Source: Haladaptatus cibarius D43
Lineage (GTDB): Archaea; Halobacteriota; Halobacteria; Halobacteriales; Haladaptataceae
DNA: 64,000 nt
Direction of reading: 5' to 3'
Assembly: GCF_000710615.1 (NCBI RefSeq)
Contig: NZ_JDTH01000002.1
Location: 488,082 to 552,081, forward strand
Shown here: in pieces, positions 5,453 to 60,114 of the stretch
Layout of the letters: every line of letters begins with the position of its first letter
Position numbering within the stretch: position 1 is the stretch's first letter
Notes under the pieces: generated by a model
Seen by the model: only the letters and a program-made list of their open reading frames with translations
The model's database searches: none
What the model was told of the DNA's origin: nothing
Translations under genes and position numbers: made by a program

Positions 5453-7695
5453 GGATGGGGCCACGCTTGCGCAACAGCGGGGGCGGCGGTTCCGGTGGCT
5501 CAAGCAACACGCAAGAAGAGGAAAAGGAGGAAGAGAAGGAAAAGGACACCTCAGACTCCTCATCCTCGTCGTCTTCGTCCTCGTCCTCGCCGCCGACGCT
5601 TGGCGGCGTGCGCGGGCCGCGGATTCGAGACGGGGACGTTGGCTCACCGACCGAGACGAGCGAAACGAGCGTCGAGGAGGAGTTCGAAGACCTTGAGGAA
5701 GCGTATGACCGCCAAAAGGCGGAGGAGAACCGCAGTAGTGCGGGCTACGGCAGTGGGAACCGCTCGAAAATCATTGCCGATACCGACGCCGAAAAGGAGA
5801 AAAATACCGAAACACACACCGACTCGGACGAGGAGACGGAAAGCGACCAGACCAACAAGAGCAGCAGCGGCTTTCTGGGCGGCATCGACCATGCGCTGAA
5901 CAACCCCGGCGAGACGGTCGATAACGCATGGCGCGATACCCAGAAGACGTGGGACGACGTGGACGAAGGCACCAAAGATGTCGTTGACGGGACGCTCGAC
6001 AACGACGTGTTCTCGGTGCAGGATACGATTCGGGGCAGTGCCGAACTCGCACTCGGCTACGATTCGAAAGAGCAGTTCGCCCAGGACTCCACGAAACTCG
6101 CCGGAACCATCAAAGACCTCACCCAAGGAAAAGTCGCCGAAGGCACCGCGCTCGATAATCCGCTCACCGCAGGTGTCGTCGATGTCGGCACGTTCCTTGG
6201 TGAATCGTTCATCGCCGAACCATCGAAGGCTATCGTAACCGGCCTGACCGGCCTCGACGTGGACGAGGGCACCGCCGAAGGCGAAGTCGGGGCGGGCGAC
6301 GTACTCGATGTTGCACTCACCGCAACGGGTGGCAAAGCCGTCAAAACGGGGGCGAAAGGCCTCCACCGCCTCTCGAAATCCGATGAAGCGGCCGCTGCGC
6401 TCTCGAAACTCGGCGTGAAGTCGAGTGACGACGGCGTGCGCGTTCTCGGTGGGCCGAACAAAGGCATCTCGATGGCGGACGACACCGCCGAAACCGCGAG
6501 CAAAGCAACGCGAACCACCACAAAGGCAAGTGACGACGTGTCCACGTCCACATCGAAACTGGCGACAGAGATTGAGAACTACAAAAACTCCATTCGCTAC
6601 GGCGACGAGGCCACCGAAACCGCCGTTAAAGGGAGCGACGAGGCCGCTGAAACAGTCGCCAAGGCCAGCGACGAAGGCGAATCGTTGCTCACTCGATTAA
6701 CCAAAACGCGCAAGCGAAAGGCGGCGACGGGCGCAACTGCGGCTGGTGCGACCGGCATCCTCGCCGGAACTGCCTATGACGCCACTGTGGGCTTCGCTCC
6801 CTCGGACTCGCCGAACACGATGTCGTCCGGCGACGGTGACGACACCAATTCCGATGGCAACGGAGACGGAAACGGAAACGGTGGTGACAGCGATTCCGGT
6901 GGGAACGGAGGCGGAGATGGCAACGACTCGGGAGCCGCCATGTGGGGCCAGTTTACCGATGTGGCCGCCCTCGACGGCGGCTGGCTCCTTGGCTATCAAC
7001 AACTCGTCACCGGGTCACGCCGCCGTTGGTTCCTCATCATGGCGCAGGACGAATCGACGATGTTGGTGCTCCAAGCCGGGGGCACTGCGGCGGACGCCCC
7101 AATGATGACCATCGAGGGGCAAGCCGTTCCGGAGTTCAACGCCATGCCGTCGTTCGAGACTGAAACCGACGCCCGGAACGCCCACACGAAATGGCTTCAA
7201 TCGCGTGAGTACGACGGCAACAACCCCGACAACGGGAACCAACCGGACGACTCGCAGTGGAGCGACTGGAAACAGGTCGGCCACGAGAATCCGTGGTTCA
7301 TCACCGGGCGGTCGCACGCCGACGGCGAACGGGTGCAATTCTACGCCGCCGCCGCGATTGAGGGCCTGTCCGTGTTCCTCGGCGCGTCCGGTGGTGTCGT
7401 CGAAACACCGTATCTGTTCACCTCCTACGACGAGTTGAAAGCGGCGCTCGATGCCTACTTCACGAAGGTGTCGAACGGCGAGATTCCCGACGACCGCATA
7501 CCGGACGGCTCGCAACCCAACCGCGAAGAAGTCCGCGAACGAGTGCGTGAATCCGCACAAACCTCCCAGTCCGTGACGAAATCGGTGAGCGAATCACTCA
7601 CCGGCAAGAACGTCGCGCTCGCCGCGGTCGGCGTGGCGGGCCTCGCGGTACTTGCTGGCGGGGGCGACGGCGCGACCGCCGGAGGTGGGGCCTAA
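5449..7695 (+). CDS. large VP2-like structural protein with low-complexity and membrane segments
   Basis: 748 residues, matching my recollection of the size of SH1 VP2. Order along the chain: a Gly/Ser-rich start; an acidic Glu/Lys stretch and a poly-Ser run (about residues 15-45); a charged, probably coiled region to about 150; Ala/Asp/Thr-rich helical repeats with recurring ASDEAAET-type units (to about 420); a hydrophobic segment around GATAAGATGILAGTAYD; an Asn/Gly/Asp linker (about 460-495); a compact, Trp-rich folded C-terminal part; and a final hydrophobic segment VALAAVGVAGLAVLAGGG. The repeats and membrane segments suit an elongated virion protein linking membrane and shell. Homology is inferred from length and order. 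Confidence 0.7.
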   Translation: MRMGPRLRNSGGGGSGGSSNTQEEEKEEEKEKDTSDSSSSSSSSSSSPPTLGGVRGPRIRDGDVGSPTETSETSVEEEFEDLEEAYDRQKAEENRSSAGYGSGNRSKIIADTDAEKEKNTETHTDSDEETESDQTNKSSSGFLGGIDHALNNPGETVDNAWRDTQKTWDDVDEGTKDVVDGTLDNDVFSVQDTIRGSAELALGYDSKEQFAQDSTKLAGTIKDLTQGKVAEGTALDNPLTAGVVDVGTFLGESFIAEPSKAIVTGLTGLDVDEGTAEGEVGAGDVLDVALTATGGKAVKTGAKGLHRLSKSDEAAAALSKLGVKSSDDGVRVLGGPNKGISMADDTAETASKATRTTTKASDDVSTSTSKLATEIENYKNSIRYGDEATETAVKGSDEAAETVAKASDEGESLLTRLTKTRKRKAATGATAAGATGILAGTAYDATVGFAPSDSPNTMSSGDGDDTNSDGNGDGNGNGGDSDSGGNGGGDGNDSGAAMWGQFTDVAALDGGWLLGYQQLVTGSRRRWFLIMAQDESTMLVLQAGGTAADAPMMTIEGQAVPEFNAMPSFETETDARNAHTKWLQSREYDGNNPDNGNQPDDSQWSDWKQVGHENPWFITGRSHADGERVQFYAAAAIEGLSVFLGASGGVVETPYLFTSYDELKAALDAYFTKVSNGEIPDDRIPDGSQPNREEVRERVRESAQTSQSVTKSVSESLTGKNVALAAVGVAGLAVLAGGGDGATAGGGA

Positions 7696-52585: not shown

Positions 52586-53344
52586 CTAAAAGGTGCCGAG
52601 GCTGGCTTGCAGGCTTCGGTCGGTCGCGCCCGCTTCGAGTTCGTAGCCCACCAAATCCCGCATGTCGGTGGCGTAGGCCGTCCCGCCCCGTTCGAGCACG
52701 AGAACGCGACCCTGTGTCCCGACGACAGTGCCGCTGGCGAGCGTTTCGTGAACCGGGGCGGAGGCGAGTTCGAAGCCGTAATCGAAGTCGAAACTGTCGA
52801 TTGGGTCGAAAGAAGAGAGTGCGTCGTTCCACGCGGATTCATCGACGCTTCGGTTGAGGTCACGAATCTTCATCGGAACCCGCACGCGGTCGGTGAAGTT
52901 TTCCGCGATTTCGGCTTCGAGTTGACGGGCGATTCGCCCGTCTTTCACGGTCTGAAGGTGGACGGCGCGGTCTGCGCCCTGCTCTCGTAGTCGGGTTTCG
53001 AGTCGCCATTCGCGGGTGACGCCGACTTTGAACGTCGTGGGGGCGAACGCCGCGAGATAGATTGCGTGGTCTTCGTAGCAGTCCATCTCGTCTTTGAGAC
53101 AGGTGCCGGTACAGCGGGCGCAAATCCACGTCGAAGTGTGTGCATCGCAGTAGGGTGTTCCGGGTCGGGCGCAGGAAACGTGTACCGAACCGTCGAACGT
53201 CCCGGCGCAGTGTCGCTGACCGAGCGTGTATTCGAGTTCCGAACCTGCTACCAGTTTTTCGCGCGAAAGAGAATCCTCGTCACTCACCAACAGGGCAGGC
53301 GCGCCATCTCCGGATGCACCGGTGTCGTACCCGACGATTTGCAC
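52586..53344 (-). CDS. DUF2797 family protein
   Basis: 252 residues. The Cys-rich centre fits the DUF2797 pattern: CAGTFDG, CARPGTPYCDAH, CARCTGTCLKDEMDCYEDH, with zinc-type spacing. The region after it has AAFAPTTFKVGVTREWRLETRLREQGADRAVHL, another family hallmark. It was shown in no system that I know of. It precedes XPB on the same strand with a 23-bp gap, so co-transcription with the repair helicase is possible. Confidence 0.88.
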   Translation of the reverse strand: MQIVGYDTGASGDGAPALLVSDEDSLSREKLVAGSELEYTLGQRHCAGTFDGSVHVSCARPGTPYCDAHTSTWICARCTGTCLKDEMDCYEDHAIYLAAFAPTTFKVGVTREWRLETRLREQGADRAVHLQTVKDGRIARQLEAEIAENFTDRVRVPMKIRDLNRSVDESAWNDALSSFDPIDSFDFDYGFELASAPVHETLASGTVVGTQGRVLVLERGGTAYATDMRDLVGYELEAGATDRSLQASLGTF

Positions 53345-53475
53345 GACAGATGATTGGTACCGGCCAACTAAAAGGGGTATCGTTCGTCAGAGAGATATTT
53401 TGGCAACCAATAGATATGTTCTTGAATGTGATTAAAATTGAATAGAATTGGAATATTTGAAGAGCGGCAAAACGC

Positions 53476-53483
53476 TTTAATAA
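53476..53483 (+). promoter_or_regulatory. TATA-type element for the orphan propeptide gene, leaderless spacing
   Basis: TTTAATAA lies 24-31 bases before the GTG at 53507, the distance expected when the transcript starts at or near the start codon. Similar TATA-like elements lie about 28-34 bases before the first two proteases (near 53907 and 55253) and before the third (TTTAATAC at 56494), so each gene in this island seems to have its own promoter. Confidence 0.55.
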
Positions 53484-53506
53484 TCTGTGTGTTGTAGCAA
53501 CATAAC

Positions 53507-53734
53507 GTGGTGGACAGTGACACAGAGGATTCCGGGCAAGACGTAGTGGAGGTGAACGTCGGATTCGATGGTGGCGAAGGTCGAAAGACAGTGAGAGACA
53601 CCTCCGTAGAAGTCATTCGTGAATTCAACTCACTCGATGTTGTGACCGTCCGGATTCCACGTTCTGCGTGGACGAGGCTGGAAGACCATCCCGAAATCAG
53701 ATACGTCGAGGAGAATGGACAAACGGGCGCATAG
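53507..53734 (+). CDS. free-standing I9-type propeptide-like protein (putative protease inhibitor)
   Basis: 75 residues from GTG 53507. VEVNVGFDGGEGRKTVRD and EVIREFNSLDVVTVRIPR-type text aligns through its length with the propeptides of the three neighbouring subtilases (for example VEVNVGFSSARGKAMARS and EVVREFNSIDTMTIRVPK), and ends RYVEENGQTGA just where those proteins cross into the catalytic domain. There is no Tat signal and no catalytic part. Subtilase propeptides fold and inhibit the mature enzyme, so this gene looks like a dedicated intracellular inhibitor or chaperone. It could also be a remnant of a lost protease, but it starts and ends cleanly. Confidence 0.72.
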   Translation: MVDSDTEDSGQDVVEVNVGFDGGEGRKTVRDTSVEVIREFNSLDVVTVRIPRSAWTRLEDHPEIRYVEENGQTGA

Positions 53735-53939
53735 GTTCGTTATGGTTTGATACCGACGTGACTGCATCAACTCGATTCCGATGCCAGCGACGATACCCGT
53801 TTGAGCCGCTGGCCGCAAACTTTACCAGCATTATTCCATAGATAAAATCTAAGTTTTAAGTATTAGATATACTTATAAAAATATTGTCTTAAATTAAAAT
53901 CAAAGGTTTTTTATTCCGTGGTATGCTCTCACAAATCGT

Positions 53940-55130
53940 ATGCCAAGGAAAGCCAATGGCGTTTCGCGGCGGAATGTACTCAAACTCACTGGTGGCTCGC
54001 TGGCGGCGGCCGGTGCGACTGGTCTTGCATCTGCGGCACCGACTGACAAGGTGGAAGTCAACGTCGGGTTCAGCAGCGCACGTGGGAAAGCAATGGCCCG
54101 AAGCAGTGCGGACGAGGTCGTTCGAGAGTTCAACTCCATCGACACGATGACGATTCGAGTGCCAAAGCAGGCGGCAACTGCACTCGAAAAGAATCCGAAT
54201 ATTCGCTACGTCGAAGCGAACGGTACGATGGAAGCCCTCGCGGAAACCGAACCGTGGGGCATCGACCGCGTCGATGCAGAGGTCGCTCACGCAAACGGTG
54301 ACCTCGGCGCAGGTGCCGACATCGCAATCGTCGACACGGGAATCGACGACGACCACCCAGACCTGCAAGACCACCTCGGCTCCGGCGAGGCGTTCGTCTC
54401 CTGTGGTAACGGTGGCTACTTCGGAAACTGTGCGTTCTCCGGAAACAGCAACTCCTGTAACGTTTCGTGGTCGGACGACAACGACCACGGTACCCACTGT
54501 GCCGGTACCGCGGCAGGCGACGACAACACGGAAGGCGTCATCGGCGTCGCACCGAACGCGACGCTCCACGCGGTCAAAGTTCTAGACTGTGCGGGTAGCG
54601 GTTCGTTCTCCGACATCGCCGCCGGTGTCGAGTACGTCGCCGACCAAGGCTGGGACGTCGCCAGCCTGAGCCTCGGTGGCTCGTCCAGTTCCTCGGCGCT
54701 CCGCGATGCAGTTCAGTACGCCTACGACAACGGCGTCTCGATTATCGCCGCCGCTGGTAACTCCGGTCAGTGTACCGACTGTGTCGGCTACCCTGCCGCC
54801 TACCCAGAGACTATCGCAGTCGCGTCCTCGAACAAAAGCGACGGTCAGTCGTCGTTCTCCAGCCAAGGGCCGGAAGTTGACATCATCGCACCCGGTACGG
54901 ACGTCTACTCGACCGTTCCGAGCGGCTACGCGACGTTCTCCGGAACTTCGATGGCGACGCCGCACGTCGCCGGTGCTGTCGGTCAACTGATGGCGCAGGG
55001 CTACTCGGCCCGTGACGCGGAGAGCCAAATCCTGAGCACGGCCAAAGACATCGGCCTGCCAGAGAACGAGCAAGGACAGGGCCTCCTCGACGTGGCCGCC
55101 GCGCTCGGCTACGACTCCAGCGACAACTAA
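53940..55130 (+). CDS. Tat-exported subtilisin-like serine protease (halolysin), first of three
   Basis: 396 residues. Tat signal SRRNVLK at 9-15 and a cleavage-like ASAAP. I9 propeptide about 37-98. S8 catalytic domain with D132 (VDTG), H183 (DHGTHCAG), oxyanion N274 (AAGNSG) and S337 (SGTSMATPH). A Cys-rich insertion (C155, C164, C173, with C187, C217, C278 and C281) is not shared by its neighbours except the CVGY pair. No C-terminal extension, unlike halolysin R4-type enzymes. Secreted scavenger protease; the folded form is exported through Tat, so activity in the cytoplasm must be held back. Confidence 0.93.
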   Translation: MPRKANGVSRRNVLKLTGGSLAAAGATGLASAAPTDKVEVNVGFSSARGKAMARSSADEVVREFNSIDTMTIRVPKQAATALEKNPNIRYVEANGTMEALAETEPWGIDRVDAEVAHANGDLGAGADIAIVDTGIDDDHPDLQDHLGSGEAFVSCGNGGYFGNCAFSGNSNSCNVSWSDDNDHGTHCAGTAAGDDNTEGVIGVAPNATLHAVKVLDCAGSGSFSDIAAGVEYVADQGWDVASLSLGGSSSSSALRDAVQYAYDNGVSIIAAAGNSGQCTDCVGYPAAYPETIAVASSNKSDGQSSFSSQGPEVDIIAPGTDVYSTVPSGYATFSGTSMATPHVAGAVGQLMAQGYSARDAESQILSTAKDIGLPENEQGQGLLDVAAALGYDSSDN

Positions 55131-55285
55131 CCGACGGTCGCTCCCGTTTCACTCGTTTTACGCCGTTTCGGTAGACTGTGGCGTACTGGTGACGATACCA
55201 CTCCGCTATAACATTCAAAGAAAATAAGTATAATTTAAATCTATTATATCAGGAATTATACCTAACGATATTCTCTGTATCATTG

Positions 55286-56410
55286 ATGGTGAAACAAAGC
55301 CACACACGACGAAATGTGCTGAAAGCGACAGGTGCCTCTGTTACCGCACTCGGCGGCAGTGGTGTTGCCGCGGGACGGGAGAACGTTCGAGAAGTGAACG
55401 TTGGATTCGACAGTGCGTCCGCACGGCGATTCGCAGTTGAGGCGTCGAACGACGTCGTTCGTGAGTTCGATTCGATTACCGCGCTGACGATTCGCGTTCC
55501 CAAACAGGCAATCACCGCGCTCGAAAGTGCACCGGACGTAAACTACGTCGAGGAGAACGGTCAGATGCGTGCCCTCGCGGAAACCCTTCCGTGGGGCGTT
55601 GACCGCATCGACGCCGATGTCGCACAGACGAACGGCTACACAGGCGCAGGCGCGGACGTGGCGGTCGTGGACACGGGAATCGACGCCGACCACCCCGACC
55701 TGCAAGCAAATCTCGGAAACGGCAAGACGTATCACGGCAGTTCGTGGTCGGACGAGAACGGCCACGGAACCCACGTCGCAGGAACGATTGCGGCGGTCAA
55801 CAACTACTCCGGCGTCGGAAGCATCGCGCCCGACGCAACCCTCCACGCGGTGAAAGCGCTGAACAGCTACGGAAGCGGGTCGTACTCCGACATCGCGGCG
55901 GGTATCGAATGGGCCGCGAATCAGGGACACGACGTTATCAACCTGAGCCTCGGCGGGAGCAAGTCCGCGACCATCGAAAGCGCGGTCGAATACGCCTACA
56001 GCCAAGGCTCGCTTCTCGTCGGTGCCGGGGGCGGTTCCGGGCCGTGTAGTGAGAGTTGTGTGGGCTATCCCGCCGCAGAACCGGAAGTTATCGCGGTCGG
56101 TGCCACGAACGAGAACGACGGTCGGGCGAGTTTCTCCAGCCAAGGGCCGGAAATCGAACTCGCAGGTTCCGGGACGGACATCTATTCGACCTACTACGAC
56201 AACACCTACGAGACGCTGTCAGGCACGTCGATGGCGACTGCGCACGTCGCTGGTGCCGCGGCACAGGTTACCGCTGCTGGCTACTCGAACACGGATGCGC
56301 GCCAGCGACTCCGCGACACCGCGGAAGACCTCGGCCTGCCGAGCGACGAGCAAGGATACGGTTTGGTCGATGTAGCGGCCGCACTTGGTCTGAACTCGGC
56401 GGATAACTAA
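55286..56410 (+). CDS. Tat-exported subtilisin-like protease homologue with altered oxyanion hole, second of three
   Basis: 374 residues from ATG 55286. Tat signal TRRNVLK at 7-13, I9 propeptide about 34-95. D129 (VDTG), H160 (GHGTHVAG) and S315 (SGTSMATAH) are intact, but where the others have AAGNSG this one has AGGGSG, so the oxyanion Asn is Gly (position 250), and the Pro after the catalytic Ser motif is Ala. Either activity is reduced or a different geometry is used. The rest of the domain is well conserved, so this is not a decaying pseudogene. Confidence 0.92.
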   Translation: MVKQSHTRRNVLKATGASVTALGGSGVAAGRENVREVNVGFDSASARRFAVEASNDVVREFDSITALTIRVPKQAITALESAPDVNYVEENGQMRALAETLPWGVDRIDADVAQTNGYTGAGADVAVVDTGIDADHPDLQANLGNGKTYHGSSWSDENGHGTHVAGTIAAVNNYSGVGSIAPDATLHAVKALNSYGSGSYSDIAAGIEWAANQGHDVINLSLGGSKSATIESAVEYAYSQGSLLVGAGGGSGPCSESCVGYPAAEPEVIAVGATNENDGRASFSSQGPEIELAGSGTDIYSTYYDNTYETLSGTSMATAHVAGAAAQVTAAGYSNTDARQRLRDTAEDLGLPSDEQGYGLVDVAAALGLNSADN

Positions 56411-56527
56411 CTTCTGGCTCAAGTCGCCGATTTCCGCCCCGTACTGTTATTTTCAAATTAAAAAATATTAATTAATATATTTCCTAGAGAAAAATTTAAT
56501 ACAAACCCGGCCATTCTTTCACATGCG

Positions 56528-57655
56528 ATGCAAGGTAACAAAGATAGCGTTTCACGACGTAACGTCCTCAAAGCAACTGGTGGAGCCGCGGCGGCGATTT
56601 CCGTTACTGGTTTTGCAAACGCGAAGCCGAACGATTTGGTGGAAGTCAACGTCGGTGTTAAAAGCGCGAACGGGCGAGCGATGGCCCGCGACGCAGCAGA
56701 TGAAGTCGTTCGTGAGTTCGATTTCGATGCTCTGACGATTCGTGTTCCGAAAAAAGCGGCGACGGCTTTGCAGAAGCGCTCCAGCGTACGCTACGTCGAA
56801 GCAAACGGCCAGATGCACGCTCTCGCGGACTCAGTCCCGTGGGGCGTTGACCGCGTTGACGCGGAGCAGGCACACGCAGACGGCTATACCGGTTCAGGTG
56901 CTCACATCGCTATCCTCGACACGGGTATCGACAGCAACCACTCAGACCTCGACAACGTCAGCTACGGACGTGGATTCGGCTACAGCACGTGGGAGGACGG
57001 CAACGGTCACGGTACCCACTGTGCCGGTATCGCGGCGGCCGAAAACGACGGCCAAGGCATCAAAGGTGTCGCACCCGATGCGACCCTCCACGCCGGTAAA
57101 GTGCTGAGCGACAGCGGCAGTGGTTCGTTCTCCGACATCGCGGCCGGTGTCGAATGGACTGCGAACCAAGGCTTCGACGTGGCCAGCATGAGCCTCGGTG
57201 GCTCCTCCGGTTCCTACGCGCTCCAAGACGCCTGTAACTACGCCAACAACAGCGGCGTCTTCGTCGTCGCGGCGGCGGGCAACTCCGGCCCATGTTCGTA
57301 CTGTGTCGGCTACCCGGCAGTGTACGACTCGGTCATGGCGGTCAGTTCAACGAACTCCAGCGACGGCCTGTCGTCGTTCTCCAGCCAAGGACCGGAAATC
57401 GAAATCGCCGCACCCGGTTCGAACATCAACTCGACGTACCCCGGCGGTGGCTACAACACGCTTTCGGGTACCTCGATGGCGTGCCCACACGTCGCCGGTG
57501 CCGCTGGCGTCCTGATGGCAGCGGGCTACTCGAACTCGGGCGCTCGCAGTCAACTCAAGAACACGGCGGAGAACATCGGCCTGTCGAGCAACGAGTCCGG
57601 TTCCGGCCTCCTCGATGTGGCGGCCGCAGTCGGTTCGCCAACGTGGGATAACTAA
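56528..57655 (+). CDS. Tat-exported subtilisin-like serine protease (halolysin), third of three
   Basis: 375 residues. Tat signal SRRNVLK at 9-15 with NAKPND after it, I9 propeptide about 36-98, D131 (LDTG), H161 (GHGTHCAG), N252 (AAAGNSG) and S316 (SGTSMACPH). Close in sequence and length to the first protease, so the three arose by tandem duplication. A TATA-like TTTAATAC lies about 30 bases before the ATG. The next gene, on the same strand, encodes a BsuPI-like proteinase inhibitor. Confidence 0.93.
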   Translation: MQGNKDSVSRRNVLKATGGAAAAISVTGFANAKPNDLVEVNVGVKSANGRAMARDAADEVVREFDFDALTIRVPKKAATALQKRSSVRYVEANGQMHALADSVPWGVDRVDAEQAHADGYTGSGAHIAILDTGIDSNHSDLDNVSYGRGFGYSTWEDGNGHGTHCAGIAAAENDGQGIKGVAPDATLHAGKVLSDSGSGSFSDIAAGVEWTANQGFDVASMSLGGSSGSYALQDACNYANNSGVFVVAAAGNSGPCSYCVGYPAVYDSVMAVSSTNSSDGLSSFSSQGPEIEIAAPGSNINSTYPGGGYNTLSGTSMACPHVAGAAGVLMAAGYSNSGARSQLKNTAENIGLSSNESGSGLLDVAAAVGSPTWDN

Positions 57656-57776
57656 GCCGAACCGCTCGGTTCTCGTTCGCTGTCATCCATTTTTACGCGT
57701 CCTTCGAGCGGAGAACTGTCTCTACCGACTGAACGTCCCAGAAGCTTTTCGAATCATCGCGTCCAAGAATGAATCA

Positions 57777-58109
57777 ATGACGCTCGAAAGCGAACTGACG
57801 GCGACTCCCGGCGACGGCAACGTCGAGTTCGAACTGACGGTGAAAAATCCCAGCGACGACCCGGTAGACGTTACCTTCCGAAGCGGCCTCAAGGCGGATT
57901 TCGCCGTCCTCGAAGACGACCAAGAAATCTGGCGCGCGAGCGATGGACGAATGTTCACGCAGGCGCTTCAGTCGGAGACGTTCGACCCGGATTCGGAACG
58001 GACGTATTCGGGTGGGTGGGCAGACCCGGCGCCGGGCTACTACACCGTCGTCGCGACGCTCGAAATCATGGAAGAAGACGTAGAAGCGCGAACCGACTTC
58101 TCGATCTGA
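57777..58109 (+). CDS. BsuPI-type intracellular proteinase inhibitor
   Basis: 110 residues from ATG 57777. The pattern VEFELTVKNPSDDPVDVTFRSG, DFAVLEDDQEIWRASDGRMFTQ, and a final GYYTVVATLEI strand is that of BsuPI, a beta-sandwich inhibitor that binds intracellular subtilisin in Bacillus. No signal peptide, so it should stay in the cytoplasm. It lies 121 bp after the third protease and points the same way. Its role here, to hold Tat-exported proteases in check before export, is inference. Confidence 0.85.
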   Translation: MTLESELTATPGDGNVEFELTVKNPSDDPVDVTFRSGLKADFAVLEDDQEIWRASDGRMFTQALQSETFDPDSERTYSGGWADPAPGYYTVVATLEIMEEDVEARTDFSI

Positions 58110-58133: not shown

Positions 58134-59111
58134 TTACTCCAGCTTTTCGTACAACTGTTCTGCGGCCTGCCGAACGGCCTCGTCACTGCTCTGGGCGGGT
58201 TGCCAGCCGAGTGCGGACAGTTTCTCGATGGAGAGGCGCATCTTCGGCACGTCGCCGGTCCAACCCCGGTCGCCGCCGGTGTACTCGTATTCCGGATTCA
58301 AATCCATCACGTCGGCCACGATGTCGGCAATCGCGTTGACTGAGGTGGTCGTCTTCGTGCCGAGATTGTAGGTGTGCATAGCACCATCGGACGGCGTCCG
58401 ATGTGCCGCCGAGTTCCTCTCAGCAACATCGTCCGCATTTTCCACGACGTAGCGAATCGCTTCAGTACACTCCGTAACGTGCATGTATGACTTTTCTTGG
58501 AGTCCGTTGCCGAGAATCGTGAGCAAGTCGGGGTTCTCGTCCAGTTTTTCCACGAAGTCCGGAACGACGCCTGCGCCGAATCGCGCGCCGACGATATTTG
58601 CAAAGCGGAAGTTCCACACCGTGAAATCGTAGGAGTGCGCGAACGTGGAGAGGAGTGCCTCCTCGGAGAGCTTTGCCGACCCGTAGATGCTGATGGGTTC
58701 GAGGGGGGCGTAATCCTCCGGCGTCGGGCGCGGAGCCTCGCCGTAGACGGTCGAAGAAGAGGTGAAGACGAAGTTCGTCACGCCGACCTCGTCCATCCGT
58801 TCGAGAATGTTGTAGGTCATTTCGCCGTTTTCCTCGAACTGCGGGCGCGGGTCGTCCGTGTTGACGTACTTGTCCGCGGCGGCGAAGTGGAAGACGGCGT
58901 CCAACTCGCTCGTGATGACATCGCTAACTCGGGCTTCGTCCGTCAAATCCGCCTGCACGAACTCGGCATCGTCCGGGATGGAGGAGCGAATCCCGTTGGA
59001 GAGGTCGTCTGCGACCACCACTTCGTTGTCTTCGACGAGGTCTTCGACCATCTGCGAGCCGACGAGTCCCGCACCGCCGGTTACGAGCACTCGCTTACCG
59101 GAGAGTTGCAT
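58134..59111 (-). CDS. NAD-dependent sugar epimerase/dehydratase (SDR family)
   Basis: 325 residues from ATG 59111. Rossmann motif TGGAGLVGSQ near the N-terminus (GxxGxxG), DLSNG for the ribose of NAD, catalytic Ser/Tyr/Lys set SSSTVYGEA, then YGSAK (YxxxK) near residue 145. Similar to UDP-glucose 4-epimerase-like enzymes that make sugar donors for S-layer and N-glycosylation. The substrate is unknown. It converges on the BsuPI gene. Confidence 0.9.
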   Translation of the reverse strand: MQLSGKRVLVTGGAGLVGSQMVEDLVEDNEVVVADDLSNGIRSSIPDDAEFVQADLTDEARVSDVITSELDAVFHFAAADKYVNTDDPRPQFEENGEMTYNILERMDEVGVTNFVFTSSSTVYGEAPRPTPEDYAPLEPISIYGSAKLSEEALLSTFAHSYDFTVWNFRFANIVGARFGAGVVPDFVEKLDENPDLLTILGNGLQEKSYMHVTECTEAIRYVVENADDVAERNSAAHRTPSDGAMHTYNLGTKTTTSVNAIADIVADVMDLNPEYEYTGGDRGWTGDVPKMRLSIEKLSALGWQPAQSSDEAVRQAAEQLYEKLE

Positions 59112-59571: not shown

Positions 59572-60114
59572 ATGCAAACCGAAACCGAGGTTACCGTCGT
59601 CCGTCTCGGCCACCGACCCGGACGCGACGAGCGAATGACGACACACGTCGGACTCACCGCCCGAGCGTTGGGTGCAGGCCGCGTCGTCCTCCCGGACAAC
59701 GCCGGAAAATCGCGCGACACCATCGTGGACATCACGGAGCGATTCGGCGGCCCCTTCGAGGTCGAGTGCTCGGAGAGCCAGAAGGCGCTCATCCGAAACT
59801 GGGAGGGAAAAGTCGTCCACCTGACGATGTACGGCGAGCGCGTGCAGGACGTGGAGGAAGACGTTCGGGAAACGTGGAGCGACGAACCGCTGCTCGTCGT
59901 CGTCGGTGCCGAAAAGGTTTCTTTCGACGTGTACGAGGCCGCGGACTGGAACGTCGGCGTGACGAATCAGCCACACTCCGAGGTCGCCGGATTGGCCGTC
60001 TTTCTGGATAGGTTGTTCGAGGGCCGAGAACTCGACCGGGAGTGGGAGGACGCAGACCAGCGCGTGATTCCCAAAGCAACCGGGAAACGGGTTGAATCAG
60101 TTGACGAGGAGTAG
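59572..60114 (+). CDS. trm56: tRNA (cytidine(56)-2'-O)-methyltransferase Trm56
   Basis: 180 residues, a SPOUT-class enzyme: VVRLGHRPGRDERMTTHVGLTARALGA near the N-terminus is the family hallmark, and the knotted AdoMet-binding part (LLVVVGAEKVSFDVYEAADWNVGVTNQPHSEVAGLAVFLDRL) follows. It methylates the 2'-hydroxyl of C56 in the T-loop of archaeal tRNAs. It stands alone. A dispersed repeat and a 520-bp spacer follow. Confidence 0.94.
   Translation: MQTETEVTVVRLGHRPGRDERMTTHVGLTARALGAGRVVLPDNAGKSRDTIVDITERFGGPFEVECSESQKALIRNWEGKVVHLTMYGERVQDVEEDVRETWSDEPLLVVVGAEKVSFDVYEAADWNVGVTNQPHSEVAGLAVFLDRLFEGRELDREWEDADQRVIPKATGKRVESVDEE

Follow-up and report, generated by a model that had tools for sequence, protein, structure and literature searches.

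How can an archaeon that exports folded and potentially self-activating proteases avoid digesting itself? This question is raised by a locus of Haladaptatus cibarius D43, which we analysed within a stretch of 64,000 nucleotides (the window) and in which three tandem genes for subtilases of the Peptidase_S8 family (S8a, S8b, and S8c) lie between two genes for small proteins: a 75-aa protein resembling a free-standing subtilase propeptide (I9-type) and a member of the BsuPI/IPI family. The original prediction, made from the letters of this DNA alone, had described a five-gene row on one strand, in which three subtilases with leaders for twin-arginine translocation (Tat) are framed by two signal-less inhibitors. 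All five open reading frames (ORFs) indeed lie consecutively on the plus strand (Table 1), and Pfam matches (E ~1e-52 to 1e-55) together with RR leaders confirm three Tat-type subtilases, each with a propeptide of its own. We put the probability at roughly two in three that the 75-aa protein is a stand-alone, propeptide-type cytoplasmic inhibitor of the adjacent Tat-exported subtilases.

Conservation of a solitary propeptide-like gene

The solitary I9-type gene recurs in all nine Haladaptatus genomes as an orthologue of 75–78 aa (55–79% identity), always between the conserved gene that we take to be DUF2797-like and the first subtilase gene, some 90–300 bp ahead of the latter. Because the arrangement is kept in 9/9 species, a chance origin is excluded; lack of conservation in related genomes had been named beforehand as grounds for refutation, and its presence throughout the genus leaves the reading standing. 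The orthologues evolve under purifying selection, with a median pairwise ratio of nonsynonymous to synonymous substitution rates (dN/dS) of 0.21 (array partners: BsuPI, 0.19; S8a, 0.20; S8b, 0.16; S8c, 0.22), and their substitutions are in excess at the third codon position (645:539:1321). In a propeptide tree of 75 columns, the nine solitary proteins formed a single clade with 100/100 support on a long stem, and thus a single capture, with retention ever since, is the most likely history of the gene; the neighbours of this clade were weakly supported.

A stop codon directly 3′ of the I9 domain makes this a gene of its own, with no fused catalytic domain. At the other end, the open frame comes to 77–103 aa in eight of the nine genomes (that of G008 extends longer upstream), and an in-frame stop lies 2–7 codons upstream of the start in 7/9 species, which rules out a signal peptide in these seven. 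The TATA box TTTAATAA ends 23 nt before the GTG start of the window gene and is common to 8/9 species, with TTTACTAC in the ninth. Such TATA-to-start spacing is typical of leaderless transcripts in haloarchaea, and the solitary I9 transcript looks leaderless. The copy was therefore rightly described as lacking a signal and a catalytic domain and as having its own TATA box, which is moreover conserved across the genus. Clear homology to the propeptides of its neighbours (~50% identity) and a position within their array might suggest that the ORF is a leftover of a subtilase gene that was duplicated and is now decaying. Given a frame that is open in all nine species, free of stops and frameshifts, the low dN/dS, one deep clade, and the conserved promoter, this explanation is barely credible, and we rejected the idea of a remnant.

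Within the genomes searched, the solitary I9 gene is a Haladaptatus feature. It was found in named records of H. litoreus, H. pallidirubidus, H. halobius, H. salinisoli, and Haladaptatus sp. DYF46, and a scan of genome contigs returned Haladaptatus matches only. Outside the genus, no solitary I9 was detected in 28 genomes of the family, where other propeptide matches were fused to a protease bar broken or contig-end copies. At the level of the order, 145 genomes likewise yielded none beyond Haladaptatus, and neither did a search of 140 order genomes with the PF22148 profile. Short propeptide matches in three genomes were rejected, two as parts of frameshifted protease genes (G013, G027) and one as cut by a contig end (G019). 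A literature search, covering open-licence papers, returned no description of such a gene.

A candidate cytoplasmic guard

The AlphaFold model of the solitary protein predicts a propeptide fold (pLDDT, the model's confidence score, 82.5; core ~90, tails uncertain) with secondary-structure order E-H-E-E-H-E. Its closest PDB structures (Z 7.2–8.3) were the enzyme-bound propeptides of Tk-subtilisin and BPN′, with the POIA1–BPN′ complex also among them (1v5i_B; Z 7.2, 64 residues, 2.2 Å), and the top match in Foldseek was 1spb_P. These values are modest (Foldseek E 4e-3; Z 7–8, near the background level of which the tool warns); nearly all top rows of the search were propeptides, and a sequence profile independently matched 1spb_P to the solitary protein (E 7.5e-7). 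The PF05922 (I9) profile gave no match to the ORF at E ≤ 1. Glu68 and Asn70, invariant in the Haladaptatus alignment, correspond to the helix-capping residues Glu69/Asp71 of BPN′ and Glu146/Asn148 of Plasmodium SUB1-ProM (PMC6993865). Aligned with 1spb_P, the tail of the window protein stops at P2, one residue before the inferred P1, and in three species the tail extends beyond P1 (GALDA, GTLDA, GAFDD), with Leu or Phe at P1 plus two residues; the earlier claim that the copy ends exactly at the propeptide–catalytic boundary therefore did not hold.

We infer binding, inhibition, targets, and a cytoplasmic role for this protein along the following lines. The gene would have arisen once, in the Haladaptatus ancestor, when a related Tat-exported subtilase lost its signal and catalytic domain and was reduced to its propeptide. 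Since Tat carries proteins that are already folded, subtilases may self-activate ahead of export; the I9 protein, having no signal, would remain in the cytoplasm, where its beta-sheet would dock on the catalytic domain, capped by the conserved Glu68/Asn70, while its C-terminal tail would occupy the S4–S2 subsites and block the prematurely mature enzyme. The halolysin SptA matures intracellularly, and a Tat-signal mutant or blocked secretion kills the expressing host (PMC6085418), so a cytoplasmic guard would plausibly be useful. Archaeal propeptides can be nanomolar inhibitors (PMC10580911). A trans-acting propeptide copy would be the simplest guard of this kind, and it has parallels in yeast, fungi, plants, and Plasmodium.

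Several facts weigh against such a role. Each subtilase already has a propeptide in cis, and a solitary I9 is dispensable to most haloarchaea, the sister genus with its 1–10 array members among them. The ORF scores just below the cut-off of the Fervidolysin_NPro-like profile PF22148 (20.7 versus 21 bits), the window protein has no P1 residue, and a common fold, here a predicted one, is insufficient as proof of inhibition. The solitary propeptide could instead act in trans as a foldase, mainly helping the subtilases to fold before Tat export: subtilisin propeptides are both chaperones and inhibitors (PMC10580911), Tat needs folded cargo, and fold and interface would be the same. However, every array member has retained its own propeptide and in sister genera the same enzymes fold with no solitary I9 present, and we regard a foldase as rather improbable. 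It is very unlikely that the protein is chiefly a regulator, or a stable hetero-complex partner, of the oxyanion-deficient S8b instead of a guard against active proteases. While purifying selection on S8b (dN/dS 0.16), which is found in seven of the nine genus members, is in favour of such a partnership, the sister genus has S8b-type genes without a solitary I9, and two Haladaptatus genomes (G002, G006) have an I9 gene although their arrays lack S8b. We therefore prefer the reading as a cytoplasmic inhibitor of the adjacent subtilases.

Cytoplasmic partners of exported proteases are known from staphostatins and from the SpeB–Spi pair, in which Spi resembles the propeptide of its protease; staphostatins and Spi target cysteine proteases, unlike the I9 candidate, which would act on subtilases. 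Alike in logic is the PopC–PopD pair, where the cytoplasmic partner PopD complexes the exported protease PopC and blocks its secretion (PMC6434023). POIA1, yeast proteinase B inhibitor 2, and Arabidopsis SPI-1 (stand-alone members of MEROPS I9) are small and free-standing and have a propeptide fold, as is predicted for the Haladaptatus protein, but are without significant sequence similarity (PMC6993865), whereas the Haladaptatus protein is ~50% identical to the propeptides of the adjacent proteases. SUB1-ProM, likened here by its description, shares the Glu/Asn helix-capping pair, has a tail that falls short of that of the cognate propeptide by one residue—as does the window protein's—and is a proven potent inhibitor of SUB1; it is, however, eukaryotic and probably located in the parasitophorous vacuole (PMC6993865), while the Haladaptatus protein is archaeal, signal-less, and a candidate inhibitor. 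In the literature found, stand-alone propeptide-like subtilase inhibitors come from fungi, plants, and apicomplexans; if our reading is true, the Haladaptatus protein would add the archaea to this list, with a sequence that openly shows its descent from the type of protease under its presumed control, and would make testable how a Tat exporter of folded, self-activating proteases avoids self-digestion.

The BsuPI gene and its linkage to subtilases

The protein at the far end of the array passes the PF12690 profile (92.6 bits; cut-off 22.9) and resembles the sequence of 3ISY, the structure of B. subtilis IPI. Its start is most likely at 57777 (110 aa), as orthologues share that start; the 164-aa ORF from 57615 was consequently rejected as an over-extension. 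BsuPI is present as a single copy in 28/28 family genomes and was found in 78 of the 145 order genomes. Across Halobacteriales, the gene typically sits in the order DUF2797(−), BsuPI(+), epimerase(−), Trm56(+), without a protease. BsuPI is a vertically inherited, order-wide resident gene at a fixed locus.

Of the two-inhibitor set in the original prediction, the solitary propeptide-like gene proved real, conserved, and signal-less, making this observation stronger than had been claimed, whereas the reading of I9 and BsuPI as a matched pair was not supported. BsuPI is linked to subtilases in several lineages. Because the solitary I9 is restricted to Haladaptatus and BsuPI is order-wide, an I9 counterpart is missing for the majority of BsuPI genes, and we rejected a fixed pairing. 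A paired, two-layer reading is possible; a coordinated system of two layers is a conjecture.

The linkage itself was followed in the 28 family genomes and at BsuPI loci of 53 further Halobacteriales genomes (L077–L129). A subtilase gene lies directly upstream of BsuPI, on the same strand, in 24/28 and 10/53 genomes (the latter from 6 genera and 5 families). By our own estimate (~10 S8 genes, 3.9 Mb), a same-strand S8 gene <1 kb upstream of BsuPI would be expected in ~1 genome in 1000, and hence the adjacency is not a matter of chance. It could stem from an ancestral arrangement instead of shared function; its recurrence is suggestive of the latter, but no proof. The adjacency seen here contradicts the statement by Rigden et al. 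(2013) that no IPI homologue from a complete genome has a subtilisin gene nearby (PMC3901451). Along the DUF2797–BsuPI–epimerase–Trm56 order, subtilase genes (1–10) appear to have been repeatedly inserted or lost, upstream of BsuPI and on its strand.

Whether BsuPI controls these proteases is less certain than the role of I9. There is close to, if not quite, an even chance that it is a passive neighbour, the resident gene of a locus into which subtilase arrays inserted. In line with this, the DUF2797–BsuPI–epimerase–Trm56 order occurs free of subtilases, none lying beside BsuPI in 43/53 non-family and 4/28 family genomes, the topology of the BsuPI tree follows taxonomy, and MEROPS dropped the family, since an action as inhibitors could not be told from one as competing substrates (PMC3901451). 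Yet the upstream same-strand subtilase recurs in 8 genera of 6 families overall, forces at least five changes of linkage label on the BsuPI tree, and accompanies BsuPI away from its usual neighbours in three genomes (G040, G063, G077). By sequence, the window protein belongs to the same family as B. subtilis IPI/BsuPI (3ISY), known alongside the protease Isp1; IPI homologues were reported away from subtilisin genes and their inhibitor status is disputed (PMC3901451), whereas the window gene adjoins Tat-exported subtilases. Where arrays adjoin this older gene, it may add a second, structurally unrelated inhibitor. That the captured propeptide and BsuPI together silence tandem self-activating subtilases (one of them an impaired decoy) until export is a tentative proposal, which we consider doubtful. 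The adjacency nonetheless supplies natural protease partners with which to decide whether BsuPI/IPI proteins are true inhibitors.

Subtilases and borders of the array

Catalytic D, H, and S are present in all 109 aligned subtilase genes. The array proteases combine a Tat leader, a propeptide, and an S8 domain with the triad, the features of a halolysin, and since these proteins of 375–396 aa end with the S8 domain, without a C-terminal extension (CTE) as in SptA, they are CTE-less relatives of the classical halolysins. The Asn-to-Gly change at the oxyanion hole of S8b is found in all 7 Haladaptatus orthologues and in 10 genes of the sister genus; these 17 genes cluster together, along with two unaltered ones. 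Laboratory change of this Asn in subtilisin strongly lowers activity, and S8b may thus be weakly active or inactive, a candidate pseudoprotease of a conserved subfamily.

Table 1 Features of the array and its borders (window coordinates)
Feature	Position	Strand	Evidence or remarks
TATA-box region of the solitary I9 gene	53475..53489	+	Box TTTAATAA at 53476-53483; kept in 8/9 Haladaptatus species, ninth TTTACTAC
Solitary propeptide-like (I9-type) protein, 75 aa; candidate cytoplasmic subtilase inhibitor	53507..53734	+	GTG start; no signal peptide
S8a, short Tat subtilase, 396 aa, own propeptide, no C-terminal extension	53940..55130	+	PF00082 E=1.8e-53, motifs; triad intact, as is the oxyanion Asn
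S8b, Tat subtilase with propeptide	55283..56410	+	Triad present; oxyanion-hole Asn to Gly (GAGGGSG), TSMATP to TSMATA
S8c, Tat subtilase, 375 aa, with propeptide	56528..57655	+	PF00082 E=9e-55, TAT_signal matched weakly; triad intact, as is the oxyanion Asn
BsuPI/IPI-family protein, 110 aa; candidate intracellular inhibitor	57777..58109	+	PF12690 E=1.6e-26; PDB 3ISY E=1.3e-8; no signal peptide
Left border, conserved 252-aa gene, presumably DUF2797-like	52586..53344	-	Left neighbour of array or of BsuPI across Halobacteriales
Right border gene, presumably NAD-dependent epimerase-like	58134..59108	-	Followed by a gene at 59572-60114, presumably Trm56-like; both conserved right neighbours of BsuPI

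Related arrays held further unusual members. In H. salinisoli (G006), one subtilase (L053, reverse complement 6411-7559) shows a two-residue deletion that removes the oxyanion Asn (AAA--SG), reads GSSMSAPH at the catalytic Ser, and sits on a long branch, which points to a second, independently impaired copy. A genome of the sister genus (G012, L067:3435-16636) shows an unusually large expansion: its DUF2797-like gene and BsuPI enclose ten subtilase genes in tandem. Finally, the D43 genome contains a second S8 cluster outside the window (L134, G000:C2:106500-113000), with several partial matches that are possibly broken or divergent subtilases.
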